Positions 36,263-47,098 of a stretch of DNA of 64,000 nt are shown in pieces; positions within the stretch are counted from its first letter, which is position 1, and each line of letters begins with the position of its first letter. The position numbers and the translations under genes are program-made. The stretch spans positions 132,885-196,884 of the forward strand of contig JASBTF010000001.1 in the NCBI GenBank assembly GCA_030148545.1, read 5' to 3'. A model generated the notes under the pieces. It worked only from the letters and a program-made list of their open reading frames with translations. It made no database searches and had not been told where the DNA came from. This DNA comes from Pseudomonadota bacterium (GTDB lineage Bacteria > Pseudomonadota > Alphaproteobacteria > UBA2136 > JASBTF01).

Positions 36263-39200
36263 TTAAACAATGTTAATTGTCGCACCTAGGTCGAACTGGA
36301 TGTACAGGTATGGGTCCACAAATGGGTTGGTTGGGTGGACGTACTCTACGTATGTAACACCGTCGGATGCATGGTCGAGACGACCATCGCCGTAAGCGAG
36401 GTTCCAACCTGCTTTGCTATTACTTGCACCACCGCCAATATTACCGCTGAACCCTGTTAGGTTAATGGTGTCGTTAGCATCGAGGTCGATAACGAGGTAG
36501 CCACTATCGGTAAGGCTGTTGAGTGCAGTTTGGCTGAGGGTAAGGGTATCGGCAGCGCCATTGTTGAGGTCAATACGCTCAATACCGCTGAAGTTACCTG
36601 TGGCAACATCAATAGTGGCGCCACCTACGTCTACATCTAAGGTGTCTAGTCCGGTACCACCAGCAATGCTACTGTCGGCACTATCCCACACCAGAATATC
36701 ATTACCTGCACCACCGTTGAGTAGGTCGGTACCTGTGCCACCGTCTAGTGTGTCGTTACCGCCGGTTGCACTGACAGCATTGGTTTCACCATAGAGTTGG
36801 TCACTACCTGCACCACCATACAAGGTATCATCACCGTTACCACCATACAGTGTGTCGCCTTCGCCATCTCCGTATAGGGTGTCGTTATCGTCTTGCCCGA
36901 GGATAAAGTCAGCGCCTGCGCCACCGTATAGGGTGTCGTCACCGCTACCACCAATCACAAAGTCGCCATCGCCTTCACCATACAAGGTGTCGTTGTCGCC
37001 TTCACCTTGTAGGGTGTCAGCGCCTGCGCCACCGTAAATCGTGTCGTTACCATCGCCGCCGTAGAGTTCATCGCTACCGCCGTGGCCGTTAAGGTTATCG
37101 TCATCACCTAGACCATAGAGGTAATCGGCCCCTGCGGAACCATTCAGCGTATCTTGCTGTGGTGTACCGCGTACGGTTTCGAACCCGCTGATGCTAATCG
37201 TGCCAGTTTGGCCAGCAATGGCAACGGTGCCTGCGGTTAGGTCTACCGTGATCGCTTGAGCAAGGCTGCTAAAGTTAAGGCTGTCGTTTGCACCTGTCGC
37301 CCCTTCTAGTACGGCGTCGGTATTATCGGGGTTGAGTAGGGTTACATCGGCCGTGTTGCCGCTGTAGCTATTGCTTTGCAGGGTAACATCGCCCGCAGCG
37401 TTAATGTACACCGCAGCAAACGTATAGCCGCTTAGTGTGTTGCCAGTAATGGTGCCGCTTTCTAGGTCGTTACTGTAAATACCTGTGGTGCTGGCGTTGG
37501 CGCCAGTATCGGCCAGTACGTTATTGGTAATATCAATATCGGTAATGGTACCTGTGCCTAGGTCGATTGTGCGGTCACTAGCGGTGACGTTACCACTAAT
37601 GTGGTTATTATCAATTTCCCAACCACTGTGTGCGGTGCCTGTGGCGGCAATAGCGGTGCCACTTTGGCTGGTAAAGCGGTTGTTGGTAATAGTGATATTA
37701 TCGCTTGTGCCGGTAGCAACAATGCCATTATCGCTAATACCATCTAGTTGGAAACCGCTGATGGTAATATTATCGGCATCGCTGGCAATGGTAATACCTA
37801 CGCCGGCAGCTGGTGTTAAAATACTCTCGGCACCACGGGTGCCAGTAACGGGGCTAATATTGCTGTTTGCACCAATTAGGGACAAAGCTTTGTTGATGGT
37901 TAAGTTTTCGTTAAAGCTACCGCTGGACACAAACACATAGTCGCCAGCGCTGGCAGCATTAATAGCCGCTTGAATGCTCTCGCCACTATCTACAAAGTGC
38001 AGGCTGCTGCTGGCAATGGTTTGGTCATCGAACTGTAAATTTTCCACATCGGGGTTTACGGTATCGGTACCATCGGGTCCTGTTACAATGAGGTTGCCGC
38101 TTACATCTTCACTAAAGGAATAAGCAGAAAAATTACCGCTGAAAATAGCTGTATCGGTACCGGCACCACCGTTAATAGTATCATCGTCTGCGCCACCGGT
38201 AAGCGTATCGTCACCATTACCGCCGTTTAATTCATCGTCGTTAGTGCCACCGTTTAGGGTGTCGTTATTGTCGCCACCATTTAAGGTGTCTTCGCCGTTG
38301 CCGCCATTCAGCACATCGTCGCCGCCGTCACCGTTGAGAACGTCATCGCCGTCATCACCGTTGAGCGTATCATTATCGGCGCCGCCGTTTAGCGTATCGT
38401 TGTTGTCGCCACCATTTAGGGTGTCGGCACCACTATCGCCATTGAGGGTATCAACACCAGCGCCGCCGTTTAATGTATCATCGTTGTTGCCGCCATTCAG
38501 CGTATCATTGCCGGCGTCACCGTTAAGAACATCGTCGCCATCGCCACCGTTTAGGGTGTCGTTATCGTTACCGCCGTTTAGGGTGTCATCATTATTACCA
38601 CCGTTAAGAATATCGTCCCCAGCATCGCCATTCAGCGTGTCGTCACCATCGTCACCATTCAGCGTGTCGTTATTGGCACCACCGTTTAGGGTATCGTTTT
38701 CGCTACCGCCGTGGAGGGTATCTACGCCCGCGCCACCGTGCAGTACATCTGCGCCAGCATTACCGTAGAGCGTATCATCGCCATCTTCACCGTATAGCGT
38801 ATCGTCGTTGTTGCCACCGCTAATTTGGTCGTTTTCAGTGCCGCCATACAGGGTGTCGTCGTCATCGCCACCATCAATAGTATCTGCGCCTGCACCACCA
38901 CGAATGGTATCGTTGCCGGCATCACCATTCAGCACATCGTCGCCGCCGTCACCATTAATAATGTCATCGCCAGCGTTACCGTAGGCGGTATCGTTATCGG
39001 CGCCACCGTTAATGGTGTCGTTATCGCCATTACCGTAAATTGTGTCGTCTCCAGCGTCGCCATTTAAGGTGTCTTGGCCTGGGCCACCATACAAGATGTC
39101 GTTGTCGTTACCGCCGTTTAAGGTATCGTTACCACTGCCGCCATTAAGCGTATCTGCGCCATTACCGCCGTTGAGTACGTCGTTACCGTCATCACCGTTG

Positions 39201-39886
39201 AGCGTATCGTTGCCAGCATCGCCGTTCAAGGTGTCGTTATCATCGCCACCGTTGAGAATGTCGTCGTTATCGCCACCGTTTAGGGTGTCATCGCCACCGA
39301 AGCCGTTGATGGTGTTGATGCCAAAGTCACCGGTGAGTACATCATTCCCTGCGCCACCGTTAAGAATGGGTTGGCTTACCGGGCCTGTGCTGGTGAACAC
39401 AACGGGTGGTAGTTCTACCGGTTGGCTGCTGCCAAAGCTGTTGGTGCTCGTACCGTTATTGCTGCTGTTGGTACCGTTATCATCGTTATCGTCGTCGTTT
39501 AGCGTATCATCGCTATTGAGTGGGTCGGCATTGATACCAAAAGTGTCCACGTAGTTGATTGGGGAACCATTGCCATTTGGGTTGGTGTTAGTTTGTGGGC
39601 CAGCCGCAGGTTCAATATCGGTATTGTTTAGGGTGGCTAGTAGCGTTTCGCGCGCAATTTCTTGGCCATCTACCACTACGGTTTCTAAATTCTCGGCATT
39701 GGAAAAGCCAATAAGTTCAATAACGCTGCCATCGGTAAAAGTGAGGATGAGGCTGTTGGGTGTGTTGCTTAGTACTACATCGGCCAGGGTGAAATCGGCA
39801 AAGCTAACCTGGGTGAGGTCGCTTACATTAATAATAACGCGTTCGGTTGCTGCTGGTTTGTTGAGCGCAAGCTGCGTGTTGGCCAT
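36263..39886 (-). CDS. Giant RTX / parallel beta-helix secreted surface protein
   Basis: A 1207-residue Asp/Asn/Gly-rich protein. A diverged N-terminal domain (~1-100, NVSDLTQVSFADFTLADVVLS and TFTDGSVIEL) resembles the start of T1SS-exported adhesins. An Asn/Asp linker with DDTLNDDDNDDNGTNSSNNG follows. RTX block 1 (~170-580) repeats GGxGxDxLNGGxGxDxL, binding Ca2+. A pectate-lyase-like beta-helix (~625-880) repeats SDNITITNNRFTS. RTX block 2 (~910-1080) follows, then a C-terminal region without Cys that ends in NIV, compatible with a type I secretion signal. Transport genes are not in the window. GAGGGAAG precedes the ATG. Its product may be an adhesin or polysaccharide-modifying enzyme. 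Confidence 0.9.
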   Translation of the reverse strand: MANTQLALNKPAATERVIINVSDLTQVSFADFTLADVVLSNTPNSLILTFTDGSVIELIGFSNAENLETVVVDGQEIARETLLATLNNTDIEPAAGPQTNTNPNGNGSPINYVDTFGINADPLNSDDTLNDDDNDDNGTNSSNNGTSTNSFGSSQPVELPPVVFTSTGPVSQPILNGGAGNDVLTGDFGINTINGFGGDDTLNGGDNDDILNGGDDNDTLNGDAGNDTLNGDDGNDVLNGGNGADTLNGGSGNDTLNGGNDNDILYGGPGQDTLNGDAGDDTIYGNGDNDTINGGADNDTAYGNAGDDIINGDGGDDVLNGDAGNDTIRGGAGADTIDGGDDDDTLYGGTENDQISGGNNDDTLYGEDGDDTLYGNAGADVLHGGAGVDTLHGGSENDTLNGGANNDTLNGDDGDDTLNGDAGDDILNGGNNDDTLNGGNDNDTLNGGDGDDVLNGDAGNDTLNGGNNDDTLNGGAGVDTLNGDSGADTLNGGDNNDTLNGGADNDTLNGDDGDDVLNGDGGDDVLNGGNGEDTLNGGDNNDTLNGGTNDDELNGGNGDDTLTGGADDDTINGGAGTDTAIFSGNFSAYSFSEDVSGNLIVTGPDGTDTVNPDVENLQFDDQTIASSSLHFVDSGESIQAAINAASAGDYVFVSSGSFNENLTINKALSLIGANSNISPVTGTRGAESILTPAAGVGITIASDADNITISGFQLDGISDNGIVATGTSDNITITNNRFTSQSGTAIAATGTAHSGWEIDNNHISGNVTASDRTIDLGTGTITDIDITNNVLADTGANASTTGIYSNDLESGTITGNTLSGYTFAAVYINAAGDVTLQSNSYSGNTADVTLLNPDNTDAVLEGATGANDSLNFSSLAQAITVDLTAGTVAIAGQTGTISISGFETVRGTPQQDTLNGSAGADYLYGLGDDDNLNGHGGSDELYGGDGNDTIYGGAGADTLQGEGDNDTLYGEGDGDFVIGGSGDDTLYGGAGADFILGQDDNDTLYGDGEGDTLYGGNGDDTLYGGAGSDQLYGETNAVSATGGNDTLDGGTGTDLLNGGAGNDILVWDSADSSIAGGTGLDTLDVDVGGATIDVATGNFSGIERIDLNNGAADTLTLSQTALNSLTDSGYLVIDLDANDTINLTGFSGNIGGGASNSKAGWNLAYGDGRLDHASDGVTYVEYVHPTNPFVDPYLYIQFDLGATINIV

Positions 39887-39997: not shown

Positions 39998-41863
39998 TTA
40001 TAGGTTGCACAGAGGAGAAATACGCAATAGTTGGTAGGTGGCGGTGCCATTGTTGGTTTTAAGTGTGCGGGAGCTAAAACGTTGTAACTGTTGCTCAGCA
40101 ACAGGCGTTAGGCAGCCTGTATTGCGCAAGGTGTGGAACGTTTGTGCATCGTGCCGGTTACCTTGTGGCACTTTAAGTAGCCAGTGGGTATAGCCTTGTT
40201 GTTGTAGCTGTTGCCATACGGCTTTGGGGGTGTCGGTCATCAGCCCAATTTGGCTTTGGTAGTAGGGGTAATGGTAGCCATAAGGCAGTGGCATATTGTA
40301 GTTCAGCTGGCGTAGATTGTGCGTGAAGATTTTGGGGTTTTTATGCTCCACTAAATCTAGCAGTTTAAGCGTGCCGAGAGTGTTAATTTGTGCCTGTTGG
40401 TATGCTTGCGGCGTTTGGTTGGTTAGCACAGCTTTAAGCGCGGGTAGGTTAATGGCCAGTGCCGCCAAACCAAATAACCCTAGTGTGGCCAACATAAACA
40501 GTTGTTGGCTGTGTTGTGCTAGCTTGGGTGCGCTGTGCCATGCTTGGTAAACCAAAGTGCTACCAGCCAATAGGGTGAGTGGAAAAACCGGCAGTAGGTG
40601 ACGTGTTTTGCTAGAGGCACCAAGGAAAAACCACAGTGCAAAAAAGCCAACAAAAATAATGCTGCCTAGCCATGCAGGTTGTGCATCATCGGCCCAGTTT
40701 TGTGGGCGGTAGTGCCATAGGCTAACTACTGCGGCGAGCATACCAAGTGGCAGCAGGTGGCCAAGCCCTGTGCGGGAGTTGTCGTACGGTGTGCCGTTAA
40801 GGGTTGCCTCAATAGGGTAGTACATAAAATGCCACAAGCTTTGGCCATAGCCAGCGCGGGTGCCATCCATAAAGGTGCTGAATACGCTGTTTTGCGCAGT
40901 GCTCCAATTAGGGCAGTTAAAAATACTACCGCAACCAATAGGGAAAATGGGAGAACCACTATTAAGCCATAGCCATATATAAAACGGTGCTGCAACAAGC
41001 GTGATAACAGCAGCAAAGCTGATAGCGTGTTTAGCTTGCTGCCACAGTGGTTGCCTGCGGTTGAGGTAGAGGTAGCTGAGCCCAATTAAAAAAGCGCTAA
41101 ATAGGCTGAATAGTTTCATCCCCAGCATGGCGCCGGCAGCAATGGCGGCCACTACCCACCACTTACCTTGGAATTGCTGGTGTTTAAGCAGGGCAAAAAT
41201 AGCCAGTGCCACCACACCAACGAGGCGTAGCTCCACCGTGCCGGCAGCAAAGCCGTAGCTGAATATGGGTAGGGCAAGTACTACAATGGCGGTCCATGCG
41301 GCCCAAGCGGTGGGGAGCCACACACGCCCAAGCTGATACACCATGCCCGCCGCCATGAGTGCGCTGAGCCAGGCAAGTGCCATCATGGCGCGCTCGCCAC
41401 CTAGGGCGTAGCTTGTAATCCAGCTGCTTTGGGTGAGGAATGGTACCGCGTAATCCACCGCCATGGACTGGAAAATAAGAGCTTGTGCCTCTACAAACTG
41501 TTTAGGTAATGCAAAATGGTAGGCAAGGCTATCTGCCTCTACTGGGGGAAGGCTGGCGCTGAACAGGTGCAGTAAAGCAAAGCCGCTGGCAAAGAGTAGT
41601 GGCAGTTTAAGGTTTTTAAAGTTGGGTTTGGTTATGTTTGTACCTACCCAGCCGATGAGCCCAGCCAAGGCGAATAGTGGTACGGGGTAGGCCATGTGCC
41701 CTGCATAAAACAGGAAGGTAGCGGTGCTGATAATGGTAAAACCAAGCCAAAATTGGGCAAAAAACCCAATATCTAGCTGTAAAAAACGCTGGCCAATACG
41801 TCCCCAGCCGGTGAAAACAAGTAGTAAAACAATGGCCCAGCCAAATGTGGTGAAGAGTGCCAT
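39998..41863 (-). CDS. GT39/ArnT-like multi-pass membrane glycosyltransferase (putative)
   Basis: A 621-residue protein with about 11-13 membrane segments. The loop after an early segment carries LPPVEADSLAYHFALPKQFVEA, resembling the acidic first periplasmic loop (ExD/DE) of ArnT/PMT glycosyltransferases that use polyprenyl-phosphate sugars. The C-terminal ~120 residues are soluble. The frame extends to 41914, but the ATG at 41863 overlaps the stop of a 38-residue gene in TAATG and is the likely start. A GT2 gene of the DPM1 type is encoded divergently and could supply the lipid-linked sugar. The acceptor is unknown. Confidence 0.75.
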   Translation of the reverse strand: MALFTTFGWAIVLLLVFTGWGRIGQRFLQLDIGFFAQFWLGFTIISTATFLFYAGHMAYPVPLFALAGLIGWVGTNITKPNFKNLKLPLLFASGFALLHLFSASLPPVEADSLAYHFALPKQFVEAQALIFQSMAVDYAVPFLTQSSWITSYALGGERAMMALAWLSALMAAGMVYQLGRVWLPTAWAAWTAIVVLALPIFSYGFAAGTVELRLVGVVALAIFALLKHQQFQGKWWVVAAIAAGAMLGMKLFSLFSAFLIGLSYLYLNRRQPLWQQAKHAISFAAVITLVAAPFYIWLWLNSGSPIFPIGCGSIFNCPNWSTAQNSVFSTFMDGTRAGYGQSLWHFMYYPIEATLNGTPYDNSRTGLGHLLPLGMLAAVVSLWHYRPQNWADDAQPAWLGSIIFVGFFALWFFLGASSKTRHLLPVFPLTLLAGSTLVYQAWHSAPKLAQHSQQLFMLATLGLFGLAALAINLPALKAVLTNQTPQAYQQAQINTLGTLKLLDLVEHKNPKIFTHNLRQLNYNMPLPYGYHYPYYQSQIGLMTDTPKAVWQQLQQQGYTHWLLKVPQGNRHDAQTFHTLRNTGCLTPVAEQQLQRFSSRTLKTNNGTATYQLLRISPLCNL

Positions 41864-41979
41864 TAGCCTAAGAATACCTTCATAATTGTGCTTAACAGTG
41901 GCACAAACTGCCACAAAAATAGTGCCAAGCTAGCCCAGCACAGTAGGCTGATGAACCATAAGGTCATGTTGTTCTTCAT
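41863..41979 (-). CDS. 38-residue single-pass membrane protein coupled to the glycosyltransferase
   Basis: The frame reads MKNNMTLWFISLLCWASLAL then FLWQFVPLLSTIMKVFLG, a short N-terminal charged stretch followed by one long hydrophobic helix. Its stop codon overlaps the ATG of the GT39-like gene (TAATG). A TATGCT -10 box ends 7 bases before its ATG with TTGTTT 16 bases further upstream. It may be a small subunit or leader-type regulator of the large membrane enzyme. I know no family. The reality of the gene rests on coupling, promoter position and a plausible membrane helix. Confidence 0.6.
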   Translation of the reverse strand: MKNNMTLWFISLLCWASLALFLWQFVPLLSTIMKVFLG

Positions 41980-41985
41980 GATGCG

Positions 41986-42032
41986 TAGCATAGCAGCAAA
42001 TTATTGCCAAACAAGGTTCAAAAGCGTACTTT
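41986..42032. promoter_or_regulatory. Divergent leaderless promoters of the glycan locus
   Basis: Rightward: TTGCCA at 42004-42009, exact 17-base spacer, TACTTT at 42027-42032, then 7 bases to the ATG at 42040. Leftward: TTGTTT (42014-42009), 16-base spacer, TATGCT, then 7 bases to the ATG at 41979. The two -35 boxes share base 42009, an arrangement close to that at 3031-3081. Confidence 0.5.
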
Positions 42033-42039
42033 ACGCCAC

Positions 42040-43023
42040 ATGACGGTGCAGAAGAAAAAAGGCCTCAAGCTGATTATCCAGATTCCTTGCTATAATGAGG
42101 AGTTTGCCTTGCCAATTACACTTAAGGAATTACCACGCAAAGTACCCGGTGTGGACGTGGTGGAATGGCTGGTGATTGATGATGGCTCTAGCGACAAAAC
42201 AGTAGAAATTGCTAAAGAACATGGCGTGGACCATGTGGTGAGTAACCCGGTAAACATGGGGCTGGCTAAAACCTTTATGCGTGGTTTGGAAGCCTGCTTG
42301 CAACGCGGTGCCGACATTGTGGTAAACACCGATGCTGATAACCAATATAATGGTGCCGATATTGAGAAACTGGTAGCACCTGTTGTAGCTGGTGAGGCTG
42401 AAATGGTGGTAGGTGCACGCCCAATTGAGAGCATTGCGCATTTTAGTCCGCTGAAAAAATTCCTGCAAAAACTGGGTAGCCACATGGTACGTGTGCTGAG
42501 TGGTACCGATGTGGCGGATGCACCAAGTGGTTTCCGTGCTTTTAGCCGTGACTGTGCGGCACAGCTGCATGTGTTTAACAAATATACCTACACGCTGGAG
42601 ACTATTATTCAGGCGGGGCATAAGGGGATGCGCGTGGCCTCGGTGCCGATTCGGGTAAATGGTGACTTGCGCGAAAGCCGTTTGGTGAAAAGTATTTTTA
42701 ATTATGTGCAACGGTCGATGTTGACTATGTTCCGCATTTTTATGATTTATGCGCCGCTGCGGTTCTTTTTGGTGTTGGGCAGTGTACCGTTTGCACTGGG
42801 GATGCTGTTGTGCCTACGTTGGGTGATGTTGACCTATGTGTTTATTGAGCCGGGGCGTACCTATTTACCGAGTCTTGTTTTGGCAGCAATTTTGTTACTA
42901 ATTGGTGTGCAAACATGGATATTTGCCTTTGTGGCCGACCTAATGGCCGCAAACCGTAACATTTTGGAAGAGTTGCGTACCCGTTCACGTTTGGCTGCAT
43001 TGAGCAACAAAAAAGAAAGTTAA
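42040..43023 (+). CDS. GT2 family glycosyltransferase (polyprenyl-phosphate sugar synthase type)
   Basis: A 327-residue GT-A glycosyltransferase of the DPM1/ArnC/GtrB kind. IQIPCYNEEFALPITLKELP, WLVIDDGSSDKTVEIAKEHG, NMGLAKTFMRGLEA and the metal-binding NTDADNQYNGADI are canonical. Two C-terminal membrane segments (~250-275 and ~285-310) anchor it. It probably transfers a sugar to undecaprenyl phosphate, which the divergent GT39-like protein could use. The frame runs to a TTG at 42004, but that is the -35 box; the ATG at 42040 is preferred. It leads a four-gene operon. Confidence 0.9.
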   Translation: MTVQKKKGLKLIIQIPCYNEEFALPITLKELPRKVPGVDVVEWLVIDDGSSDKTVEIAKEHGVDHVVSNPVNMGLAKTFMRGLEACLQRGADIVVNTDADNQYNGADIEKLVAPVVAGEAEMVVGARPIESIAHFSPLKKFLQKLGSHMVRVLSGTDVADAPSGFRAFSRDCAAQLHVFNKYTYTLETIIQAGHKGMRVASVPIRVNGDLRESRLVKSIFNYVQRSMLTMFRIFMIYAPLRFFLVLGSVPFALGMLLCLRWVMLTYVFIEPGRTYLPSLVLAAILLLIGVQTWIFAFVADLMAANRNILEELRTRSRLAALSNKKES

Positions 43024-43026
43024 GCT

Positions 43027-44460
43027 GTGAGCAAGGTAAATATTACAGCACCAGCTGAAACATGGGCGCAGTTTGAACAGCAGGTTATTAAACCCGGTAA
43101 CTGCATGCACTGCGGTTTGTGTGTGGGTGTATTACCAGAAAAGCTGGCATTTGCTGAAACGCCACAAGGGCTATTGCCACAGCTTACAAAACAGTTAGAC
43201 GATGCCGATGCAGAAGCATTAAACACGGCATGGGCGTGCTGCCCGGGGCGTGGTGTGCCTTACCACCATGTAAATGAGTTTTTGGGTCGTACGGCACACC
43301 CACTACTAGGTGCGTTTGAGGAAACATATGTTGGCCATAGTGGTAACAAAACAGTACGGGAGCGTGGTGCTTCTGGTGGAATTCTCTCCAGCGTGTTGAT
43401 CCACCTGTTGGAAACTAAACGAGTTACGGCGGCCATTGTTTTGCAGCAAGGTGCACATACGCCAGAGCAAGCTGCGCCCGTATTTGCCCGCACAGCAGAT
43501 GAGGTTTTGGCCGCAGCACAAAGTGTTTATGCAGTAACGCCAACGCTAACAGTGCTAGAGCAAATTGACCCAGCCGCAGGACCCTATGCCATGGTGGTCT
43601 TGCCCGAACAAGCAGCAGCATTACGCATGCTACAAGCAGCGGGTGACCCACGTGCGTTGGCAATTAAGTATGTATTTGGGCCATATGCGGGTACCAATAT
43701 GTACCATGGTTCGGTACGTGGTTTCTTGCGTGGGCAAGGCGTTGGTAACGATGTGGCAATCAGCAAGTTACAGTGGCGTGCTGGCGAGTGGCCGGGTTAT
43801 TTGCAGGTAGATACGGCTGATGGTCGCACGTTTAAAGCTGAGAAGTTTTATTATAATTACCTGATTCCGTTTTTTATCTCGCGCAATTGCCAGATTATTC
43901 CAGATTTTACCAATGAGCTTACCGATTTGAGTGTGGGTGATGCGTGGGCACCAACGTATGAAAAACAGCGTGGTGGCCATGCGGTGGTTGTACCGCGCAC
44001 GGCCGAGGTGCAGAGCATTTTGCAAGAAATGGTAGAGCAGGAAAAGCTGGTGCTGAATGCGGTGAGTGTAGAAAAAGCGCTCTCCATGCATGGGCACATG
44101 TTGGACTTTAAAAAGCGTGGGGCATTTATTCGCCTTGGTTGGCAAAAAGCAGCTGGCAAACCTGTACCACAGTACGATTATGCGCCAGCAGACGTTGGCC
44201 TCATGCGCAAGGTTGTGGAAGGGGTGTTATGGTTAATTTTTACCACTGGTCGCCAACCGTGGGCACGGTGGATTATTACCCGTTTACCGCTGAGCATTGT
44301 GGGGCCAACGTTTAATGGCTTGCGCTTGAGCTGGAAGAAATTATCGAAGCCCACTAAGCGCAAAGGCTTGGCAGAAGTAGCGTTTACCCAAACATTTATG
44401 GATGAGCGTTGGCAGGAAATTGCCCAAACAGAATCAACACAGGAGCAAGCCCGCGCATGA
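43027..44460 (+). CDS. FrhB-like iron-sulfur/flavin protein (F420 hydrogenase beta-subunit family)
   Basis: A 477-residue protein related to coenzyme F420 hydrogenase/dehydrogenase beta subunits. The N-terminal 4Fe-4S ferredoxin-like motif is CMHCGLCVG (~26-34) with WACCPG further on. The middle has [19 protein letters not shown] (FrhB_N) and the C-terminal part [23 protein letters not shown] (FrhB_C). The family normally has C-x2-C-PD there; here the second Cys is Ile. Similar proteins occur in exopolysaccharide clusters as possible reductases. The start is a GTG 3 bases after the GT2 stop. It overlaps the next gene by 4 bases (ATGA). Confidence 0.8.
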
Positions 44461-46046
44461 GTGATGCTCTCGCCAAAACGTTAACACAATATGCTGAGCG
44501 CCATGCAGCACGAGTGCTGACGCAGCTAGACCGTGACCCGGATAGCCCTACCTATGGCTGTTTTGACCGTAATTATTGGCATTATAAAATTCGTGATTTT
44601 GCTAGTAGCATTTTGCAGCAAGGTTTGTTTTTGCTGGAGGCTTTGCGCCAAGGGCAGCTGAGTAACCCTCAGGTAGATTCAAAAATTGCTGGTGAGTGGA
44701 CTCTTGCGGCTGTGAATGCACTTTCTTGGCAAGTGGATTCGGCAGGGCGGGTGGATGAATATTACCCGTACGAAGAAAGCTACCCAGCTGCGGCATTTGG
44801 TTTATATGCAGTGAGCAAGGTTTTGTGGCAATGGCAGCAGGAGAAATCTCCACTGCTGGCGCGCGTAGATTGGCGTGGGTTGAAGCGCTTGGCTCGTGCG
44901 TTAAGCAAGCGTACGGAGCCACAAGCAGCAAACCAGTTTGCTGCTGGGCTGGCTGGTTTAGCCATGGCGCAGCATGTGCCAGAGCTGGAGGTTAAACAAA
45001 AGCAAGTTGCCAAGTTGGCAGATGTGTTTTTTGAGCTTCAGCATGAGGAAGGGTGGTTTCCGGAATATGGCGGGCCAGATTTTGGTTACTTAACTGTAAC
45101 CATTGATGCTTTGGCAGATTATGCAGATGCCACAGGCGATGAACGTGCACCGGCTGCCGCCAAAAAAGCGATTAGCTTTTTAGCTAGTTTGGTGGGTGCA
45201 GATGGTGATTTGCCGTGGACCTTAAACAGCCGCAATACTGATTATATTACCCCGTATGGTTTGAGCCGTTTTGCTGCAGATGATGCAGAGGCAAGCTTGT
45301 TGTTGCATCAGCTGTTTAAAAATGCGCTGAAGCCGGAGCACTTTTTAGCCAATGTGGATGACCGTTACCACTGCCACTATGTGTACGCTAGTTTGGTGCG
45401 TAGTTTGCCATTTGCTGAAGCTGCCGTAGCGCCTGTTGGTCGTGCTGTAGGGGTGCAAAGGTTGTTTGCTGGTTGCGGTTATTGGGTACAGCATAGTGCT
45501 AAAAATAGTGTTTATATTGGGGCTAAAAAAGGTGGCCTAGTACGAGTGCATTACACTAATAAACCAGCTGTGGTTGACCATGGTTGGCGGGTAAAAAACA
45601 GGCATGGCCAGCTATTTAGCAATAACTGGTGGCAGGATGATTGGGTGGTTACCGTACGTGAGCACACAGTGCAAGTGCGTGGCCCGTTGGTGCGGGTGGG
45701 TTTCCAAAACAGCTCACCGTTTAAGCACGTGGTGTTGCGTATGTTGGCGTTGGTATTGCGCAAAAAACTGATGCCGCTGTTAAAAAATATTATGATTTTC
45801 CGCCCACAAGCAGCCAAAGGACCTGCATTTGAGCGCACCATTGTGGTGGATGAAAAAACAGTAGAGCTAACCGATGGTATTGCTGTTTGTCATGATGCAA
45901 CGGCTTATGTAGCGCCACGGCAAAATCGCCGCCATGTGGCAAGTGCTGATAGTTTCCATGCTGAGGAAGGTCGTGCACCGTTATTGCAAGCTGCACCAAC
46001 AGTGTTGGAAAAGCCATTGCAGCACCAGCAAATTGTTAAGTTATGA
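44457..46046 (+). CDS. Alpha/alpha-toroid protein, heparinase/polysaccharide lyase-like
   Basis: A 529-residue protein. The N-terminal two thirds is helical with [58 protein letters not shown] and [20 protein letters not shown], the pattern of alpha/alpha-toroid enzymes such as heparinase II/III and related surface-glycan proteins. The C-terminal third is beta-rich ([16 protein letters not shown]). No signal peptide is seen, so it may act in the cytosol or be an unusual one. The catalytic residues cannot be assigned. The ATG at 44457 overlaps the upstream stop. Confidence 0.7.
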
Positions 46047-47002
46047 CCAAGCGCCACCTGCATGTGTTGAGCATTGCCATTAGCCTTGGCTTGTTGGCGT
46101 TAATTTACAGCCTGATTGATATGCAAAGTTTTGTGGCGGTGTGGCGTGAGCTACAGTGGGGCTGGTTGGTGCTGGCCATGCTCATTACCGTACCATTGTT
46201 TATGGCAACAGCGTGGCGTTTGCAAAAGTTGAGTGAATCGAACTTAGGCTTGGGGCTGAGCTGTCGGGTAAATGCACAAGCTAGTACTATGAACTTAGTT
46301 GCTCCTGCCAAGTTGGGTGATGTGGGCAAATGTATATTTTTAGCGCAGCATAGTAAAACACCGGTGAGTGGATGGTTTACGCTGTGTGTGTTTGAGAAAC
46401 TATTAGACTTAGCTACGTTATTAGCGTGGTGTGCGCTGGGGCTATTGCTTTCACCTTTGTTGCCCGATGGTGTGCGTTGGACAGTGCTGCCTGTAGGTGG
46501 TGCGGCAGTGGCGTTTTTTGTGGCGTTGTTGTTTCGTAAAATTACTATTGGGCTCATGGATGTTATGGCTGGCCACTTACCAGACAAACTGGCCAATATT
46601 TTGCGTAAATTACGAGAGGAATGGGCACAGCTGAGCATGCTGATGCAGCGCCAGCCGCAACGGTTTTGGTTGGCCGTTTTGGTGACCATTGCATTGTGGG
46701 CAGGGCATTTATTGCAAATTTGGTTGCTCGCGCAAGCTGTGCAGCTGGATTTAGATTTATGGACAATGTTGGCCTTGGTGCCACTGGCTTTAGTGGTGGG
46801 TTTGCTACCGTTTACGCTAGCTGGCATTGGTACCCGAGATGCAGCGTTTGTGTTGTTACTAGGTGCGTATGGTAATGCACCAGCGGCAGCAGCTTTGGGG
46901 CTGCTCACTACCTTCCGCTACATTTTGCCGGCACTGGCGGGGATACCGCTACTGGCGCGAGACATGGCCACATGGCGACAGTTGCTGAAGGATAAAAATT
47001 AA
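46043..47002 (+). CDS. Flippase-like inner-membrane protein (lysylphosphatidylglycerol synthase TM / UPF0104 family)
   Basis: A 319-residue protein with about eight membrane segments. NLVAPAKLGDVGKCIFLAQ and LLPFTLAGIGTRDAAFVLLLG are the two conserved loops of the family (AglD/MprF N-terminal type). Members flip lipid-linked intermediates across the inner membrane. The start overlaps the previous stop by 4 bases, so it closes the GT2-FrhB-toroid-flippase operon. It is followed by a structured region at 47005-47098. Confidence 0.85.
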   Translation: MTKRHLHVLSIAISLGLLALIYSLIDMQSFVAVWRELQWGWLVLAMLITVPLFMATAWRLQKLSESNLGLGLSCRVNAQASTMNLVAPAKLGDVGKCIFLAQHSKTPVSGWFTLCVFEKLLDLATLLAWCALGLLLSPLLPDGVRWTVLPVGGAAVAFFVALLFRKITIGLMDVMAGHLPDKLANILRKLREEWAQLSMLMQRQPQRFWLAVLVTIALWAGHLLQIWLLAQAVQLDLDLWTMLALVPLALVVGLLPFTLAGIGTRDAAFVLLLGAYGNAPAAAALGLLTTFRYILPALAGIPLLARDMATWRQLLKDKN

Positions 47003-47004
47003 AA

Positions 47005-47098
47005 AACAGCCCCGACAGGAGTGGCTCGTTATACTCGCCGCCTTCGGCCTATGGCCTCTGGTCGAACCTAAGGTTCAACCCCTTAGCTAGGGGCTGTT
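47005..47098 (+). other. Structured non-coding region with alternative pairings
   Basis: AACAGCCCC (47005-47013) pairs exactly with GGGGCTGTT (47090-47098) around ~76 bases that contain GGCCTATGGCC (47046-47056) and GAACCTAAGGTTC (47064-47076). The 3' GGGG can instead pair with the closer CCCC (47079-47082). It lies after the flippase operon. No U-run follows directly. Confidence 0.5.

Follow-up and report, generated by a model that had tools for sequence, protein, structure and literature searches.

A heparinase-fold protein and a replaceable flavin reductase in a probable module for lipid-linked sugar modification

The window, by which we mean the whole 64,000-nucleotide stretch of DNA analyzed here, contains a divergent locus whose four + strand genes probably form one module that makes a remodeled sugar on polyprenyl phosphate and exports it. 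These genes follow each other in the order GT2 glycosyltransferase, FrhB-like flavin reductase, a toroid protein here called TOR, and flippase. The first-pass annotation had seen no obvious place for the FrhB-like protein and TOR in a lipid-linked sugar route, yet no other pair of the set is linked so tightly. The product may be a reduced or otherwise novel sugar that ends on the cell surface.

Organization of the divergent locus

An ORF check of the window recovered the six ORFs of the locus where the first-pass annotation had placed them. On the - strand, a 38-amino-acid (aa) single-transmembrane (TM) peptide (41863..41979), an ORF with one hydrophobic segment and no family match in Pfam or NCBIfam, lies ahead of a PMT_2/GT39-like membrane glycosyltransferase (39998..41863). 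The latter is polytopic, with 8 hydrophobic segments, matches PF13231 of Pfam at 31.3 bits (cutoff, 26.1), and is predicted to transfer a lipid-linked sugar at the periplasmic side. The stop codon of the peptide ORF overlaps the ATG start codon of the GT39-like gene as TAATG, so the two genes are translationally coupled, as had been proposed. The GT39-like gene most likely starts at this ATG (41863) rather than at GTG 41914.

The + strand arm opens with a GT2 polyprenyl-phosphate sugar transferase of the DPM1/AglJ/GtrB type (42040..43023), for which ATG 42040 is a more likely start than TTG 42004. A 3-nucleotide gap separates it from the FrhB-like gene (43027..44460), and ATGA overlaps join the latter to the gene of the 529-aa TOR (44457..46046), and TOR to the LPG_synthase_TM flippase, which is AglD-like (46043..47002). 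Both the tight coupling and the protein families originally assigned to this arm were thus confirmed. The promoters of the two arms would have to sit in the 60-bp divergent intergenic region (41980..42039), where a promoter scan found promoter-like sites at chance level, no more than in shuffled sequence.

The GT2 protein matches PF00535 of Pfam at 1.6e-20; its best NCBIfam models, AglJ and PpgS, both score below the cutoff, and three hydrophobic segments lie at its C terminus (240-258, 263-281, and 292-310 in the numbering of the TTG-start translation). The flippase matches PF03706 at 1.4e-35 and TIGR00374 above the cutoff. The GT2, GT39-like, and flippase proteins had been read as one complete route, and this reading gains some support. 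In Dictyoglomota, a flippase fused to a PMT_2 domain is encoded beside the TOR gene, which brings both arms of the window locus into one protein; on the other hand, the TOR set is not always accompanied by the PMT_2 arm. At the level of the genes, linkage, this fusion, and the presence of GtrA (PF04138) in place of the flippase in some TOR loci (L011, L012, L028, and L031) point to possible joint action of GT2, flippase, and GT-C transferase. Such transfer logic is already known: the GtrA/GtrB/Gtr and ArnC-ArnE/F-ArnT systems likewise combine a GT2 polyprenyl-phosphate transferase, a flippase (small or AglD-like), and a GT-C transferase, and the exchange with GtrA is a further likeness to the Gtr systems. 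The present locus differs from them in having a flavin reductase and a heparinase-fold enzyme as well.

Conservation of the gene set across phyla

The first relative found was on a Phyllobacterium plasmid, with the order GT2, TOR, flippase, and membrane protein, and with GT2 matching at 370 bits. A TOR profile, run against 84,980 species genomes, then yielded 334 coding stretches, a pattern-limited number, of which 80 were kept. The neighborhoods of these 80 loci contained a match to GT2 in 52, to the flippase in 36, and to FrhB in 20 cases. The conservation that had been in question extends across phyla: the four + strand genes are present as a complete and adjacent set in Cyanobacteria, Bacteroidota, and at least one Methanophagales archaeon. 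The order GT2-FrhB-TOR-flippase of the window is found in the cyanobacterial loci L010 and L025; a GT-C gene interrupts it in L014 (Cyanobacteria), and the flippase gene is inverted in the archaeal locus L034. Five Bacteroidota loci (L015, L017, L018, L020, and L030) have the order GT2-flippase-TOR-FrhB, and L026 has GT2-FrhB-flippase-TOR. Partial sets (FrhB-TOR or GT2-FrhB-TOR) occur in Acidobacteriota, Verrucomicrobiota, and a Pelagibacteraceae cell.

In some cyanobacteria the module is split yet stays complete. Genomes in which TOR is accompanied by the flippase only (L009, L013, and L051) encode the same FrhB family elsewhere, and in split modules FrhB adjoins GT2 (L094, L096, and L097); the L016 genome contains the FrhB family in fragments. 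We compared phylogenetic profiles in 291 cyanobacterial genomes, counting TOR of the window type (TOR1) above 400 bits and the FrhB family at an E value of 1e-60 or less. The 9 genomes that contained TOR1 were exactly those that contained the FrhB family (Fisher p 2.7e-17). Since 6 of the 9 had been reached through TOR, the unbiased reading rests on the other 3 genomes, with which alone p is 2.6e-7, and on the finding that FrhB never occurred without TOR. Any TOR homologue was present in 65 of the 291 genomes; the 56 genomes with only a second type of TOR all lacked the FrhB family. This second large clade has neither FrhB nor nitroreductase nearby, which indicates that some TOR systems do without a reduction step.

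Exchange of the FrhB-like protein for a nitroreductase

Neighbor clustering revealed a nitroreductase (PF00881) directly adjoining TOR in loci that lack FrhB. With profiles built from the neighbors, FrhB was detected near TOR in 19 of 77 loci and the nitroreductase in 13; the two were never found together (0/77), versus about 3 loci expected if they were independent. The FrhB family was not found in genomes with a nitroreductase-coupled TOR; a single distant member (4e-13) was seen in the L012 genome, a nitroreductase case. The TOR of L012, one of the closest relatives of the window TOR, is coupled to the nitroreductase, and on the tree the two partners were exchanged at least 3 times. The nitroreductase occupies the same slot beside TOR as FrhB but belongs to an unrelated fold family, so this is a non-homologous replacement. 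That two unrelated flavin enzymes fill one slot is the best evidence that the product or substrate of TOR needs flavin reduction.

TOR has a heparinase-like fold and retains two catalytic residues of lyases

TOR matched no Pfam or NCBIfam family, including PF07940 and PF16889. Its AlphaFold model, built with 62 sequences, reached a mean pLDDT of 95.2 and a pTM of 0.95 and combines a toroid with a beta-sandwich. The top Foldseek matches in the PDB were PL33 hyaluronan lyases (E 4.9e-8), PL8, PL35 (GAGase VII, TM score 0.52), and dermatan-sulfate epimerase 1 (6hzn, TM score 0.53). These similarities are remote, with TM scores of about 0.42-0.53, but run end to end, whereas GH127 superposes poorly (rmsd about 17). 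Against a profile that we built from 29 heparinase II/III proteins, hhalign gave a probability of 95.7% and an E value of 9.9e-9 over 394 columns, which supports distant homology of TOR with heparinase II/III as judged from sequence profiles. A direct profile link to PL8 was not significant (hhalign, 20%), and global mode was uninformative. The initial description of TOR as an alpha/alpha-toroid, heparinase-like protein is correct, and so is its lack of a signal peptide: no N-terminal hydrophobic segment would pass for one.

In the hhalign alignment, Y211 of TOR coincides with the family Tyr and N159 falls within one column of the family Asn; D374 and G376 align with the DxG turn, and R460 and D473 with the R/D pair. 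Catalytic triads are Asn238-Tyr291-His444 in PL33 (PMC11848413) and Asn192-Tyr246-His401 in PL35 (PMC12088678). N159 and Y211 are invariant in all 82 TOR homologues, at a spacing of 52, versus 53-54 in PL33, PL35, and PL12 (PMC11848413, PMC12088678). In contrast, the HxHxD His/metal motif of the lyases is missing in TOR: the stretch falls in an alignment gap, just ahead of which lies K358-G-G. E106, E203, D208, D301, and R460 are also invariant, and K358 is nearly so; the four acids (E106, E203, D208, and D301) would also suit a glycosidase. With no curated match and no HxHxD motif, we rejected an assignment of TOR to standard heparin or pectate lyases, in agreement with the first-pass annotation, which had not treated it as one. 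Weak Pec_lyase matches in TOR relatives covered only short stretches of toroid repeat at changing positions.

TOR thus shares its toroid and antiparallel beta-sandwich with the heparinase II/III lyases (PL12, PL15, PL17, PL21, PL33, PL35, and PL39) and DS-epimerase 1, along with the Asn and Tyr of the lyase triad at near-identical spacing. It differs from the lyases in lacking HxHxD, a signal peptide, and any Pfam or NCBIfam match, in sitting in a biosynthetic module, and in a hydrophobic-basic helix (residues 421-448) that is inserted in the beta domain and is not a TM segment. The surrounding residues 415-455 include 8 K/R and no D/E. An amphipathic reading of this helix was discarded, as the hydrophobic moment over the whole helix is low and hydrophobic-basic fits better.

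All 38 TORs coupled to a reductase have Gln at residue 160. Among the other 44, 36 have His160, and none of these has a neighboring reductase. Because Q and H changed only 3 times on the tree, the comparison has no power beyond descent, and we take the split as a clade-level pattern, a hint rather than a test.

The FrhB-like protein resembles C=C and C-O reductases

The FrhB-like protein matches PF04422 and PF04432 of Pfam, and its Fe-S cysteines C26, C29, C32, and C72 are invariant in 20 relatives. The nearest PDB entries to its model (pLDDT 92.5) were 8riu_B, which is the CODH-linked FrhB of an ethanotroph, F420-dependent sulfite reductase, and HCAR. With these and BciB it shares an N-terminal Fer4 domain, FrhB_N, FrhB_C, and the 4-Cys cluster. 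Reduction of C=C or C-O bonds is the known activity of some of its relatives (BciB, PMC4836224; HCAR). Cyanobacterial BciB reduces a vinyl group with electrons from ferredoxin, and the unrelated BciA can stand in for it (PMC4836224); an exchange of C=C reductases thus has a precedent.

Several features set the protein apart from the FrhB/FdhB family. A family-specific, hydrophobic-basic C-terminal extension of about 130 residues (approximately residues 348-477) contains no TM segment, and most members have one 4-Cys set. Hydrogenase or F420 partner genes do not adjoin it; within the window, no gene for a partner hydrogenase or dehydrogenase subunit lies beside it, and its partners are GT2 and TOR, which always accompanied it in the cyanobacterial test. 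From their composition, the extension, which is more loosely basic, and residues 415-455 of TOR look like membrane-interface elements.

Proposed pathway and alternative readings

For the module that we favor, we infer the substrate, the order of the steps, membrane binding, the chemistry, and the acceptor as follows. On the cytoplasmic side of the membrane, GT2 would attach a sugar to polyprenyl phosphate. TOR would work on the lipid-linked sugar as a peripheral membrane enzyme, most likely removing the proton adjacent to a carboxylate, as in a uronic acid, and then eliminating or epimerizing; the residues kept for this chemistry would be a neutralizing Asn and an acid/base Tyr. In this branch of the family, the completing reduction would come from the FrhB-like protein, presumably a [4Fe-4S] flavoprotein of the ferredoxin or F420 type whose tail binds the membrane; it might, for example, reduce a C=C bond to yield a deoxy or inverted sugar. 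The product would then cross the membrane by way of the AglD-like flippase, and its transfer to an acceptor would fall to the PMT_2/GT39-like enzyme together with the 38-aa peptide. Both the Asn and the occurrence of UGDH-type genes suggest a uronic acid as the substrate; neighbor clusters place such genes near five TOR loci, and one is present in the host genome. As a pathway operating across domains, in which TOR eliminates or epimerizes a uronic sugar carried on polyprenyl phosphate and the intermediate is reduced by a flavin reductase to a new deoxy or inverted sugar before flipping, the proposal is tentative, and we consider it rather doubtful in this full form. The missing HxHxD motif counts against elimination or epimerization, and TOR may have another activity, for instance as a hydrolase.

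TOR might instead be a C5-type epimerase like DS-epimerase 1, acting on a lipid-linked uronic acid, with the flavin reductase serving a separate step such as making the donor. DS-epimerase 1 is among the best structural matches of TOR by TM score and has the Tyr and the fold in common with PL33 (PMC11848413), and the second-clade TORs, with His160 and no reductase, are as a self-contained epimerase would be. However, no partner lies as near to the window TOR clade, or co-occurs with it as strictly, as FrhB or the nitroreductase, which argues for directly coupled steps, and the Gln160 of all reductase-coupled TORs also counts against this reading, which we consider unlikely. Less probable still is a division of labor in which FrhB or the nitroreductase carries out a redox epimerization on the lipid and TOR, as a hydrolase, presents or trims the substrate. 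DprE1/DprE2 are an established case of redox epimerization of a polyprenyl-phosphate sugar and provide the precedent, and a hydrolase might have four invariant acidic residues such as those of TOR. Against such a role stand the invariance of N159 and Y211 and the end-to-end alignment of TOR with lyases and epimerases, but not with hydrolases.

That the locus is an ordinary glycan locus with FrhB and TOR as unrelated passengers appears highly improbable. Genes for GT2, flippase, and PMT_2 proteins are common in glycan islands, and coenzyme F420 hydrogenase and nitroreductase genes are occasional in capsule loci (PMC4616057). Yet the gene order kept across phyla, the split but complete modules, the identical phylogenetic profile, and the replacement of one partner by another all contradict a passenger role.

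Novelty and genomic setting

A literature search that covered few subscription journals found no paper on this gene set, nor on the pairing of an unannotated, cytoplasmic heparinase-fold enzyme with a replaceable flavin reductase, and the sugar-altering step appears to have been undescribed so far. If the favored module is correct, sugars are rebuilt on their carrier lipid by a lyase-fold enzyme together with a flavin reductase. Cytoplasmic heparinase-fold enzymes would then be biosynthetic rather than degradative, and a large uncharacterized family, judging from the matches to TOR in species genomes and cyanobacteria, would gain a function.

The host genome (G000) comprises 1.14 Mb in 3 contigs. 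The genes flanking the locus are unrelated to glycans and encode an RTX protein, cyclophilin, PrmA, MazG, and CheA. The GC content of the locus (0.47-0.51) equals that of its surroundings, and base composition thus gives no sign of a horizontal island. Nevertheless, a single-sequence query detected no TOR in any of 95 other genomes sampled in the order and class, and a profile was positive in only 4 of 289 genomes, among them the genome of the window itself.

The nitroreductase coded beside the heparinase-fold toroid protein (TOR) is usually 210 to 220 aa long, and it reaches ∼450 to 470 aa at the TOR loci L036, L039, L044, and L056. Several candidate-phylum and archaeal genomes host these long forms, and Pfam searches of two of them, from L036 and L044, identified PF00881 in both.

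TOR of a second type, which carries His160 directly after the invariant N159 and occurs without the FrhB-like reductase, was found in 56 of 291 cyanobacterial genomes; outside cyanobacteria, it is usually adjoined by the flippase and GT2. This second type probably represents a self-sufficient form of TOR.

In Dictyoglomota and one further bacterium, the gene immediately 3' of TOR encodes a PMT_2 glycosyltransferase fused to the flippase (L040:2725-5007, L045:10532-12787, and L063:10532-12820). At L007:1-4443, a highly divergent TOR neighbors a radical-SAM gene, a GT2, and an FAD-linked oxidase that, judged by eye only, looks DprE1-like.

In the window, the GT2/FrhB/TOR/flippase/PMT_2 locus is adjoined by the gene for a 1,207-aa RTX calcium-binding repeat protein (36263-39886, minus strand) with 27 HemolysinCabind stretches. 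An inverted repeat, ACAGCCCC...GGGGCTGT (46999-47098), lies in the spacer that separates the flippase gene from tRNA-Arg(ccg); it may be a terminator or a repeat element.
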